Shown here in pieces: positions 12,384 to 46,945 of a DNA stretch of 64,000 bases. Where the stretch lies: the NCBI RefSeq assembly GCF_015560805.1, contig NZ_JADMSO010000002.1:1-64000 (forward strand), written 5' to 3'. Both the position numbers and the translations under genes were made by a program. The number at the start of each line of letters is the position of its first letter. The first letter of the stretch is position 1. Origin of the DNA: Mediterraneibacter glycyrrhizinilyticus. GTDB lineage: Bacteria; Bacillota; Clostridia; Lachnospirales; Lachnospiraceae. Under the pieces are notes generated by a model that was not told the origin of the DNA, did no database searches, and saw nothing but the letters and a program-made list of their open reading frames with translations.

Positions 12384-13679
12384 ATGAAAAAAGTTGCACT
12401 GCATAATCTTGGATGCAAGGTAAACGCATACGAGACCGAAGCCATGCAGGAAATGCTGGAGGGCGCGGGGTACGAGATCGTGCCGTTTCAGGAGGGCGCA
12501 GATATCTATATCATCAATACCTGCACCGTGACAAATATCGCAGACCGCAAATCAAGACAGATGCTGCACCGCGCCCGGAAGATGAATCCGGAGGCGGTCG
12601 TTGTGGCGGCAGGCTGTTATGTGCAGGCGCAGGAAGCAAAAGAGGATATCGATCCATGTATCGATATCGTGATCGGAAATAACAAGAAACAGGATCTGCT
12701 GTCTATTTTGACAGAATATGAGGCGCAGCATTCAGATGTAAAAAAAGAAATGATCGATATCAATCATACACATGAATATGAGGAGCTGCATCTGACGAAG
12801 ACCGGAGAACATACGCGGGCATATATCAAAGTGCAGGATGGATGCAACCAGTTTTGCTCCTACTGCATTATTCCTTATGCGAGAGGGCGGGTGCGCAGCC
12901 GCCGTCCGGAGAGCGTAGTGGAGGAAGTGCGTCATCTTGCGGCAAATGGATATCGCGAAGTCGTACTGACCGGAATCCACCTGAGTTCTTACGGGATCGA
13001 TCTCGACGAGGAGATCGGGCTTCTGGAACTGATCCGCGCGGTGCATGCTGTTGAGGGGATCGAACGGATCCGTCTTGGATCACTGGAGCCACGTATCATC
13101 ACTGAAGAATTTGCACGCAGTTTGTCTGAGTTGCCGAAAGTATGTCCTCATTTTCATCTGTCCCTGCAAAGCGGATGCGATGAGACATTGAAGCGGATGA
13201 ACCGTCGTTACAACAGCGAAGAATATTATGAAAAATGTACGCTTCTGCGGAAATATTTTCAGGAGCCGGCGCTGACGACGGATGTGATCGTCGGATTCCC
13301 GGGAGAGACGGAAGAGGAATTCGAAGCGTCACGGGCATTTGTGGAGCGAGTGAGTTTTTATGAGACGCATATATTCAAATATTCCCGCAGGGAGGGGACC
13401 CGCGCCGCTGTGATGAAAGATCAGGTTCCGGAGCAGATCAAAGCGAAACGCAGCGCAGTGCTGATCGGTCTCGGACATGAAAAACAGAATGAATATGAAC
13501 GGAAATATACAGGGAGAGAAGTGGAAGTTCTCATAGAAGAGACCGCGGAAATCGGTGGAAAAGAAGTCTGGATCGGACACACGAAAGAATATATCAAAGT
13601 GGCGGTTTCCTCGGAAGAGAACCTGCAGAACCGGATCGTAAAAGGCACGGTAGGCAAGGATTTACAAATTATTCATTGA
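12384..13679 (+). CDS. mtaB: tRNA t6A37 methylthiotransferase MtaB
   Basis: A 431-residue radical-SAM enzyme that converts t6A37 to ms2t6A37 in tRNAs reading ANN codons. Three parts are visible: an N-terminal MTTase domain with HNLGCKVNAYETE, NTCTVTN and AAGCYVQ cysteines for one cluster, the radical-SAM core with CNQFCSYC (Cys154, Cys158, Cys161), and a C-terminal TRAM domain (about 370-430). LGCKVNAYE is the MtaB form of the motif and separates it from MiaB and RimO. The ATG at 12384 has an AAAGGAGAG site; upstream codons are non-family. Confidence 0.94.
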   Translation: MKKVALHNLGCKVNAYETEAMQEMLEGAGYEIVPFQEGADIYIINTCTVTNIADRKSRQMLHRARKMNPEAVVVAAGCYVQAQEAKEDIDPCIDIVIGNNKKQDLLSILTEYEAQHSDVKKEMIDINHTHEYEELHLTKTGEHTRAYIKVQDGCNQFCSYCIIPYARGRVRSRRPESVVEEVRHLAANGYREVVLTGIHLSSYGIDLDEEIGLLELIRAVHAVEGIERIRLGSLEPRIITEEFARSLSELPKVCPHFHLSLQSGCDETLKRMNRRYNSEEYYEKCTLLRKYFQEPALTTDVIVGFPGETEEEFEASRAFVERVSFYETHIFKYSRREGTRAAVMKDQVPEQIKAKRSAVLIGLGHEKQNEYERKYTGREVEVLIEETAEIGGKEVWIGHTKEYIKVAVSSEENLQNRIVKGTVGKDLQIIH

Positions 13680-39664: not shown

Positions 39665-41146
<1,482 letters not shown>

Positions 41147-45048: not shown

Positions 45049-45102
45049 GATAAAAGCTGAGAACATATGCGCATAGAGCGCGCGATTGAAGGAGGATTAC
45101 AA

Positions 45103-45660
45103 ATGATCGCAGCAGGAGATTTTAAGAACGGTGTTACCGTTGAGATTGATGGAAATATTTACCAGATTCTGGAATTCCAGCATGTAAAACCTGGAAAAGG
45201 AGCCGCTTTTGTAAGAACGAAACTGAAAAACATCATTAGCGGTGGTGTGATTGAAAAGACATTCAGACCGACAGAGAAATTCCCGAAAGCACATATCGAC
45301 AGAAAAGATATGCAGTATCTGTATCAGGATGGTGATCTGTACAACTTTATGGATGTTGAGACATATGATCAGATCGCATTGGACAAAGAAGTTGTAGGGG
45401 ATGCGCTGAAGTTTGTAAAAGAGAACGAAGTAGTAAAAGTATGTTCTCACAAAGGTAACGTATTTTCCGTTGAGCCGCCTCTGTTTGTAGAACTTGCAAT
45501 TACAGAGACAGAGCCGGGATTCAAAGGCGATACGGCACAGGGAGCAACCAAGCCGGCAACAGTTGAGACAGGTGCAACTGTTATGGTTCCGCTGTTTGTT
45601 GAGAATGGAGATGTTCTGAAGATTGATACCCGTACAGGAGAATATCTGTCCAGAGTATAA
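45103..45660 (+). CDS. efp: Elongation factor P
   Basis: A 185-residue EF-P, which rescues ribosomes stalled at proline runs. Lys32 in [17 protein letters not shown] is at the tip of the first domain and is the residue modified in other bacteria (5-aminopentanolylation in Bacillus). Three beta-barrel domains follow the standard lengths. The strong GAAGGAGG site fixes the ATG at 45103. A hairpin follows the stop. Confidence 0.96.
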
Positions 45661-45710
45661 GAATAGGCAGTGATTTTTTGAAGTGTCAGAATACAGGCAT
45701 TTCTAATATA

Positions 45711-45744
45711 GGATGGGAGCGATTCGTTTGAATTGCTCCCATCC
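45711..45744 (+). terminator. Hairpin after efp
   Basis: GGATGGGAGC-g-ATTC-gttt-GAAT-t-GCTCCCATCC, a 14-bp stem with one mismatch; no clear U-run follows, so termination would be weak. Confidence 0.5.
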
Positions 45745-45807
45745 TGCATTATAAGATCAGGATTCCGAAGTTTTTGATTCCCGCCGGCTTTTTATGATCT
45801 GCCATTG

Positions 45808-46093
45808 ATAGCGTCGATGTACAAGGGGGAAACACGCCTCAAACCGCGTAATTTCGGTGATTTTCAGCGTTATCCTCAATCAGCGTACGTCCAGTACGCT
45901 TCAATCGTCTGCCTTGAAAATCACCGAATTATCTGCGGTTGAGGTCGGTGAGTCGAGAAGAAACAAATCTAAGCCTCTTTTAGGTACTTGAACGACGCGT
46001 ACAGAGACGAGACGTACGCGGAGTGAAAGTAACAATAAAGAGGCTTAGATTTGCTCTTCATCGACCGTTTTTCCCCTTGTACACCGACGCTAT
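45808..46093. repeat. Cloverleaf-like repeat element, about 285 bp
   Basis: Non-coding element with three nested inverted repeats. Outer arms: ATAGCGTCGATGTACAAGGG at 45808 pairs with the end around 46068-46093 (two mismatches). Left inner hairpin 45837-45944: CCTCAAACCGC...AATTTCGGTGATTTTCA with its complement, two 1-base bulges, and a GCGTAC/GTACGC mini-stem in the loop. Right inner hairpin 45965-46052: AAATCTAAGCCTCTTT perfectly complementary to its partner, with CGCGTAC/GTACGCG in the loop. A 41-base copy of one end lies after modC, so it is dispersed. No ORF inside. Function unknown: RNA, MITE-like or REP-like. Confidence 0.8.
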
Positions 46094-46626
46094 ATGAGTA
46101 CGGGAATCAGCGTTATAAGGGTAAGTGATCCGAAAACAACGGAGGTTTTCATGATGGCAGATATTGCAAATAGGAACAGGATCAACAGCCACGGATTTCG
46201 TAAATTTTTGTAGTAGTACGCTTTATCTTCATAAGAAGTATGCAGTTCAAACGGTTTTCCGTCATTTGCTTTTTCTACGATCAGCAGTTCACGGTTGAAC
46301 GTTGTCGCATTGGTTGCCAGACGTCCGCCTTTTTCAGCCCATGGTCGCCAACGTATTTTCCCGATGGAGTAATTAAGATTTATATTTTTATAGAAAACTT
46401 TATATCCCATATCTTCTAAAAACATATAATAATTGTCTGCTTCTTCTTTGGATTTGTGTCCGATAAAATCGATACAGTATTTTACCTGGTTGGGGCGACA
46501 TGGCTCGAATTCATATAAGATTTTTTCTGTTCGTATAAGGCGATAGCCTTTCTTGGACATGTTGTTCAGCCATTTCATTTGTGTATTCAAAAGACCGCCC
46601 AAAAATCGATAATATTTTTTACTCAT
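46090..46626 (-). CDS. DUF2812 membrane protein
   Basis: A 178-residue DUF2812 protein. The conserved domain (about 1-105) shows LLNTQMKWLNNMSKKGYRLIRTEKILYEFEPC and a second 'GYKVFYKNINLNYSIGKIRW'-type block; two hydrophobic segments near the C-terminus (about 137-155 and 160-177) follow. The stop codon falls within the outer arm of the cloverleaf repeat, so the C-terminus may have been shortened. ATG at 46626 has GGAGGTG. It overlaps the PadR gene by eight bases; PadR-DUF2812 pairs are common and the regulator probably controls both. Function is unknown. Confidence 0.8.
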   Translation of the reverse strand: MSKKYYRFLGGLLNTQMKWLNNMSKKGYRLIRTEKILYEFEPCRPNQVKYCIDFIGHKSKEEADNYYMFLEDMGYKVFYKNINLNYSIGKIRWRPWAEKGGRLATNATTFNRELLIVEKANDGKPFELHTSYEDKAYYYKNLRNPWLLILFLFAISAIMKTSVVFGSLTLITLIPVLI

Positions 46627-46945
46627 ATGCACCTCCGATGATCGTATCTGCTATGTTTACAAGTTCATGAAGCCTCGCAAGCTCTTTTTCTGCAATTTCT
46701 TTTCCCTGAGGTGTTATGCAATATTCTTTTTTTCTTTTTTCCAGATCGCCATAGGGCGTGATCCAACCTTTTTTTTCTAAAGAGGTCAACGCGCCGTATA
46801 AAGTACCTGCCCCTAACAAAAGCTGCCCTTTCGTTTTATCTTCAATAAACTGCATAACGGCATATCCATGCCTTGGTGTATAGAGGGAAAGCAAAATATA
46901 AAAGGTCACTTCTGTAAGTGCCCCGCTTTTTGTATTGTCCCGCAT
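46619..46945 (-). CDS. PadR-family transcriptional regulator
   Basis: A 108-residue PadR repressor: TEVTFYILLSLYTPRHGYAVMQFIE is the winged-helix start, LLLGAGTLYGALTSLEKKGWI the recognition region, and the short C-terminal helix (AEKELARLHELVNIADTIIG) makes the dimer. The upstream ORF codons lack a ribosome site and I choose the ATG at 46945 with GGAGGTAT just upstream. It lies 5' of DUF2812 in the same operon. An inverted repeat upstream is a probable operator. Confidence 0.88.
   Translation of the reverse strand: MRDNTKSGALTEVTFYILLSLYTPRHGYAVMQFIEDKTKGQLLLGAGTLYGALTSLEKKGWITPYGDLEKRKKEYCITPQGKEIAEKELARLHELVNIADTIIGGAYE

Follow-up and report, generated by a model that had tools for sequence, protein, structure and literature searches.

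A mobile element of Mediterraneibacter glycyrrhizinilyticus with two head-to-head hairpins that share a conserved tandem G.A core with repeats in other bacterial phyla

The 64,000-nucleotide stretch of the Mediterraneibacter glycyrrhizinilyticus genome analysed here (the window; contig NZ_JADMSO010000002.1, positions 1–64,000) contains a 280-bp element, located between two TA dinucleotides at positions 45811–46090 (284 bp including both TAs), that is almost certainly a MITE, that is, a non-autonomous, non-coding mobile element with a TA target. This assignment follows from the multiple copies, the inverted terminal repeats, the TA duplication with a corresponding empty site, and the presence or absence of the element in related genomes; the element is short and has no transposase gene. 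Of the three readings offered in a first-pass annotation of this DNA, namely, a structured RNA, a mobile element and a large REP-like protein target, these observations support the second. Overall, the interpretation that we favor, as reasonably probable, is a MITE that is moved in trans and has an interior made of two head-to-head hairpin modules working as folded DNA. MITEs as a class are already known; what appears to be new is the hairpin module inside this one, which is found across phyla.

According to the first-pass annotation, outer arms of about 25 bp enclose two further long hairpins, each with a GCGTAC-type mini-stem in its loop, in an arrangement that could not be due to chance. 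Direct analysis bears out this description (Table 1). The outer inverted repeat (45808–45832/46069–46093; 25 nt, 92%) encloses those of arm 1 (45837–45866/45915–45944; 30 nt, 77%) and arm 2 (45952–45980/46037–46065; 29 nt, 83%), and the GCGTAC/GTACGC mini-stem is present in each arm (45883–45888/45894–45899 and 45997–46002/46014–46019). The minimum free energy predicted for the element is −155.8 kcal/mol compared to −90.0 ± 5.1 kcal/mol for shuffled sequences (z = −12.9), and 0 of the 100 shuffles reached a value as low. The window copy is slightly atypical in size, 284 bp vs 278–279 bp in other copies, because the left terminal repeat has an additional G and 5 nt (GAGAC) are duplicated in arm 2. 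The sequence GGTCGNNGAGTC in the linker region (45945–45958) is retained in nearly all two-hairpin families; the GAGTC within this region fits GANTC, the site that is exposed in CIR repeats.

Table 1. Features of the two-hairpin element in the window
Feature	Position	Strand	Evidence
Left TA, target dinucleotide	45809..45810		TA at either end of almost every full copy; one TA between neighboring copies; single TA at empty sites
Left terminal inverted repeat, GCGTCGATGTACAAGGGGGAAA, one G more than in other copies	45811..45832	+	Inverted-repeat search, alignment of copies
Arm 1 hairpin	45837..45944		30-nt inverted repeat; paired-change test on 16 elements
Conserved core of arm 1, G.A-rich strand minus	45854..45929	-	Covariance model R2, 90.1 bits (the window arm is itself among the 32 training rows)
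Mini-stem of arm 1, GCGTAC GTCCA GTACGC	45883..45899	+	Read from sequence; covariation
Linker between arms, GGTCGNNGAGTC across families, extending into the arm bases	45945..45951		Alignment of two-hairpin elements
Arm 2 hairpin	45952..46065		29-nt inverted repeat; paired-change test on 16 elements
Conserved core of arm 2, G.A-rich strand plus	45967..46048	+	Covariance model R2, 53 bits
Mini-stem of arm 2, loop with a 5-nt GAGAC duplication (about 46004–46013) private to the window copy	45997..46019	+	Sequence, comparison of copies
Right terminal inverted repeat	46069..46090	-	Inverted-repeat search, alignment of copies
Right TA; with 46090, the TAG stop codon of the minus-strand ORF 46090–46632	46091..46092		Sequence, ORF list

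The element is flanked on one side by the 3' end of an efp-like gene (ORF 45067–45660, identified by eye) and on the other by a minus-strand ORF (46090–46632). The initial assertion that it codes for nothing is nearly right, except that the last base of the element together with the right TA supplies the TAG stop codon of this ORF; therefore, the insertion probably altered the C-terminus of the encoded protein. Just downstream of the efp-like gene, there is a 25-bp inverted repeat with a 4-nt loop (45701–45754), a likely terminator-like hairpin that is absent from the terminator-scan list.

Further full-length copies, empty sites in relatives and compensatory changes in the arms were named in the first-pass annotation as the features to look for, and all three are present. 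The host genome (G000) contains 8 full-length copies with 91–100% identity, along with many fragments, and the genome of a congener (G005) carries at least 30 full copies, at 74–78% to the window copy; no trace of the element was found in 9 of the 11 other genomes of the genus searched. In the host genome, the terminal repeat GCGTCGRTGTACAAGGGG yields 122 matches with at most 3 mismatches vs 6 for a reversed-pattern control, and many of these matches are 41–53-bp palindromes from which the arms are deleted with differing breakpoints. The length is 278–279 bp in 22 of the 23 copies from the two genomes, and 275–279 bp across two-hairpin families with different ends. Nearly all full copies are flanked by TA on both sides, and neighboring copies share one TA (GACGC-TA-GCGTC). 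One copy (L008, G000 C11:193914–194190) is inserted within another repeat, and the copies of that repeat in the congener G007 read ...ACAATCCG-TA-GGTATC, with a single TA opposite the TA...TA of the filled site; the filled copy carries an additional T at its right-hand junction. In the orthologous intergenic regions of congeners, the element is likewise missing. Another candidate empty site (L276/L277) was set aside given an 11-bp difference and unequal flanks. Searching phages and plasmids directly with the DNA of the element produced no match, and the window-end pattern was not detected in viral contigs.

Two unrelated repeats were noticed in the course of this comparison. The repeat ATTGTGGGAGTGCAAAGCACGAAACAATCCGTAGGTATC is present in at least 8 places in G007 (for example, L344–L351), and one of its relatives, in the host genome, is the target of copy L008. 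A second family of about 98 bp (TGTATAGGCGACGAGCCAAAGTCCGGGCTTGCCCGAGACC...) occupies at least 16 places in the host genome with 95–100% identity, for example, at C12 about 12385–12490, beside copy L003.

For the pairing test, two-hairpin elements from several genomes were oriented alike, and 16 of these were compared. In the outer arm, 95.4% of the cells are paired, and 12 of the 27 pairs have changed on both sides; the corresponding values are 96.2% and 17 of 36 for arm 1, and 94.6% and 20 of 36 for arm 2. When the partner was slid by one or two columns in the same 16 elements, 34–48% of the cells were paired, with far fewer double changes. We conclude that selection acts on the structure of each of the three arms. 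Stem covariation alone is no proof of function because long hairpins can copy one arm from the other; the conservation of mismatches in the core, however, argues against such copying as the explanation of the arms.

Both hairpins carry the same core of about 60 nt in opposite orientations, such that arm 1 aligns with the reverse complement of arm 2. Among 32 core sequences, 88.1% of the cells are paired, compared to 31–43% when slid, and 245 cells have changed on both sides vs 80 expected from shuffles; the mini-stem of the core is 97.3% paired, with double changes in 7 of its 7 pairs. On the G.A strand, the apparent internal loop resolves into an ordered helix of tandem G.A mismatches, with the mini-stem as its cap. 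This helix includes G.A/A.G at columns 22–23/59–60, with Watson-Crick pairs in their place in some families, an isolated covarying pair 24/58 (GC in 13, CG in 10 and UA in 6 sequences), further G.A/A.G at columns 25–26/56–57, and invariant G.A/A.G at columns 29–30/52–53, followed by the mini-stem. Because Watson-Crick steps replace the mismatched steps in register, the helix reading is supported, and by analogy with known nucleic-acid structure, the G.A pairs may be sheared. Altogether, we are highly confident that the core is under selection for its fold. A potential mini-ORF that some cores have in the G.A strand (ATGAGGCGTAGC...) was considered and dropped; it is not conserved in Streptomyces or in G000. 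A weaker relative of the core (L091, G164:C16 about 40432–40507) consists mostly of Watson-Crick pairs and has no obvious transposon ends; it is located between genes that, by eye, resemble pgk and tpiA, and could be a captured or ancestral form.

The distribution of the core is far broader than that of the window element. A covariance model of the core (R1) detected it in 18 of 250 genomes of the Lachnospiraceae. Some of these genomes contain the two-hairpin form, with ends TAGCGTC... or TACCCTC... and an inverted second core about 115 nt on, and a third two-hairpin end type, TACCCAAAG..., is found in the genome that harbors the window; single-hairpin forms, with ends such as CTAGTACAGCG, are found in others. 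A second model (R2) identified the core in 24 of 398 genomes sampled from the phylum of the window. A 68-nt core query matches Streptomyces plasmids, in which it again forms the tip of a long palindrome. When species-representative genomes were scanned with a pattern, at least 119 stretches with the core were retrieved, from Lachnospiraceae, Oscillospiraceae, Clostridiaceae, Syntrophomonadaceae, Streptomyces, Sciscionella, Propionibacteriaceae and a Myxococcota MAG. The scan pattern fixes some letters, so that conservation at those positions is due in part to how the stretches were selected; the R1 matches and the free positions are unaffected. In 9 of the 11 genomes searched after the scan, there are 8–36 core matches per genome. 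In other Bacillota, Streptomyces, Sciscionella, Propionibacteriaceae and the Myxococcota MAG, the core is at the tip of single-hairpin MITEs of about 155–170 bp. The core is absent from the E. coli genomes searched and was not found in the phage collection; there was one match in a viral contig.

The ends associated with the core are diverse. In single-hairpin families, the TA-to-TA length is 153–171 bp in the 18 of 22 where it is readable, and in gapped alignments, the arms of different families are 0.51 alike vs 0.72 for each arm and its own partner. Elements of the Streptomyces GACCGACCGG family are 158 bp long, and 9 of the 14 copies have a perfect TNA duplication (TTA, TAA or TCA); for a Streptomyces single-hairpin relative, comparison of two S. 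atratus plasmids reveals an exact empty site with TAA. An IS5-family IS in another Streptomyces (NZ_CP109482) has the same 17-nt end as the GACCGACCGG family, a TTA duplication, and the domains PF01609 and PF13340, and a second Streptomyces end type, TAGGGCCTGTCCGGCGGATCA, matches the end of other IS5-family ISs. In Lachnospiraceae, the ends of two IS630-family ISs (in G133 and G039), TAGTGTACTGACA..., are closely similar, but not identical, to the ends of single-hairpin MITEs (for example, L117 and L115), and do not resemble those of the window element. Exact matches to a potential mover come from Streptomyces, and the IS630 link comes from the similarity of the ends of other elements. Because the same core is associated with ends from two DDE families that are not related to each other (IS5 and IS630), it seems to be independent of the transposase. 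Model R2 did not detect the core in the autonomous ISs examined; the sole match, L322, is a single-hairpin MITE beside an IS630 fragment.

The mover of the lineage of the window element is most likely a DDE transposase acting in trans, of the IS630-like type. In the draft genomes G000 and G005, no transposase was found to match the ends of the window element, TAGCGTCGGTGTACAAGG. Of the five congeners searched for DDE_3 (PF13358), G000 and G005, both drafts, have none, and at the DDE_Tnp_1 (PF01609) loci read in 12 genomes, the MITE ends are unmatched in G000, G005 and the other two-hairpin carriers; an IS5-like IS is present in G113, but its ends, TAGAGCGTGTTTGAAAAA, do not match those of the MITEs in that genome. 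No intact autonomous copy between two ends is present among the first 100 matches listed in G000 or in nine G005 stretches.

Several additional observations pertain to the Streptomyces relatives. L280 (NZ_CP108277.1 about 807503–807660) and L281 (NZ_CP108284.1 about 796888–797083), on two S. atratus plasmids, share the insertion site and the TTA duplication and differ in the hairpin tip (158 bp vs 196 bp), with the loop of the 196-bp form containing the palindrome GGGGTCTCCCCTGCTCGAGCGAAGCCGAGAGCTTGGGG. In L161, the element is interrupted by a sequence similar to GGGGTCTCCCCTGCTCGAGCGAAGCCGAGAGCTTGGGG, as would be expected if the hairpins were the target of another repeat. In L234 and L235, at about 1501–2214 of two Streptomyces plasmids, the TAGGGCCTGTCCGGCGGATCA end adjoins a gene for a 201-aa protein without a Pfam family, perhaps, a passenger moved by the same IS5-type ends.

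In agreement with the first-pass annotation, which did not recognize the structure as a described family, no Rfam family scored above the gathering threshold for the window, and a permissive search of the element yielded chance-level matches only; in 14 related loci, nothing was found for the element, the only hit being a TPP riboswitch elsewhere in L163. We found no earlier description in the open-licence papers searched, and one might exist elsewhere. MITEs of small size with TA ends and long hairpins are a well-described class in bacteria, which includes the two-armed CIR repeats (PMC2229807); neither Streptomyces nor Clostridia comes up in a 2024 review of prokaryotic MITEs (PMC10969869). 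The window element resembles the IS630/Tc1-mariner-type MITEs of this class in being short, non-coding and multi-copy, with inverted ends, a TA target and long-hairpin transcripts (PMC2229807). Unlike those MITEs, it contains two conserved modules that are common across phyla and transposase families, and a matching IS630 was not found in the host genome. The RUP element of pneumococcus, which is linked to IS630, and the Correia elements are examples of this type. With IS5-family MITEs, the link is through the Streptomyces single-hairpin relatives, which share the ends and the TNA duplication with an IS5-family IS; the window element, in contrast, has other ends and a TA target, and the ISs examined lack the core. 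Among the G000 and G005 loci read, there is no autonomous IS5 whose ends match those of the element, and the Streptomyces match is in another strain. The CIR repeats of Caulobacter and Brucella similarly combine two long hairpin arms and a linker in a small repeat but have no terminal inverted repeat, and their conserved motif is a methylation site in the loop (PMC2229807; compared by description). REP/BIME elements with RAYT are likewise palindromic and intergenic, the two inverted hairpins recall a BIME, and the ends of the element contain CGTC; however, REPs are 20–40 nt long and tagged at one end with GTAG or CGTC (PMC3733652), so that the REP-like reading of the first-pass annotation fails on the size of the element (280 bp) and its paired CGTC. 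Compared by eye to integron attC sites, with their RYYYAAC...GTTRRRY boxes at the hairpin base, the element differs in having its conserved part at the hairpin tip. An IS110 bridge-RNA reading of two hairpins with internal loops was dropped as well, given the conservation of the cores and their opposite orientation; moreover, there was no sign of linkage to IS110.

The orientation of the core relative to adjacent genes was analysed for 64 elements with called neighbors, a small set from mixed phyla. Read-through from a gene within 200 bp would produce the G.A strand at 17 sites and the other strand at 16, and the co-directional arrangement was found at 15 sites vs 19. This lack of strand preference favors a role at the DNA level over one at the RNA level, and in the two-hairpin form, with the cores head to head, neither strand is favored. 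On these grounds, together with the apparent independence of the core from the transposase, we consider it probable that the core acts as DNA rather than RNA and lean slightly toward its recognition by a host factor rather than by the transposase. Under this scenario, a DDE transposase would move the element in trans, via the imperfect inverted ends, to a TA target, and the interior would represent two head-to-head copies of a hairpin module that is common to MITEs of at least two unrelated transposase families. The element could base-pair over its whole length, with the tandem G.A core at the tip, and the module might act as folded DNA, either an extruded cruciform or a single strand folded during replication or transposition. 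A candidate conserved host factor that recognizes the G.A core could then favor transposition or stop repair nucleases from removing the palindrome, to the benefit of the element. A more ambitious version, which we put forward tentatively as somewhat short of probable, is that the G.A hairpin is a transposase-independent selfish module joined to IS5 or IS630 ends in at least three phyla, a folded DNA that would either attract or block a universal factor of host replication or repair.

An alternative, in our assessment unlikely, is that the element functions as RNA, with a structured tandem-G.A RNA produced by read-through that stabilizes mRNAs or acts as an sRNA, in which case the double form would provide one functional hairpin either way. 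The very stable predicted RNA fold (z = −12.9), the covariation in the core and arms, and the tandem G.A pairs, which are typical of structured RNA, are compatible with this possibility, and known bacterial MITEs are transcribed and involved in mRNA regulation (PMC2229807); nevertheless, the G.A strand is unbiased relative to neighboring genes at the 64 sites, so that orientation adds nothing to the structured-RNA reading of the first-pass annotation, no Rfam family matches, and the ends and size are fixed in a transposon-like manner. It is also quite improbable that the transposase itself recognizes the folded core and uses a fixed core-to-end distance as a ruler: the lengths are indeed nearly constant (about 155–170 bp for single and 275–279 bp for double forms) despite the differing arm sequences, but the same core is found with IS5-type ends and a TNA duplication and with IS630-like ends and TA, and the autonomous ISs examined lack it. 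The persistence of many internally deleted copies, the 41–53-bp end-only palindromes, would fit a neutral palindrome, in which the core is a mere spacer and the arms are complementary via repair-templated copying; we deem this very unlikely, given that invariant G.A and A.G mismatches and a sequence kept across phyla are not expected of a spacer. Finally, a recombination site or replication signal (attC-like, a single-strand origin, or a viral-type terminal hairpin) is extremely unlikely: the hairpin is strand-foldable, conserved and imperfect, and the element, with its three arms, recalls the T-shaped termini of parvovirus-like genomes, but these are interspersed insertions with IS ends that duplicate TA or TNA, no linked integrase or Rep came to notice in passing, and the core was not found in the phage collection, with the one viral contig match.

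Bacterial MITEs are usually described as deletion remnants of which only the ends matter. Here, the interior is the most conserved part of the element, with even the ordered mismatches and the isolated covarying pair retained, and the core recurs with different ends, target duplications and hosts, which points to a so far unrecognized function inside non-autonomous transposons. The covariance model of the core picks up numerous repeats without annotation in Streptomyces and gut Clostridia. If the G.A hairpin is indeed a transposase-independent selfish module, as in the more ambitious version above, it would be a new kind of functional part of mobile DNA.
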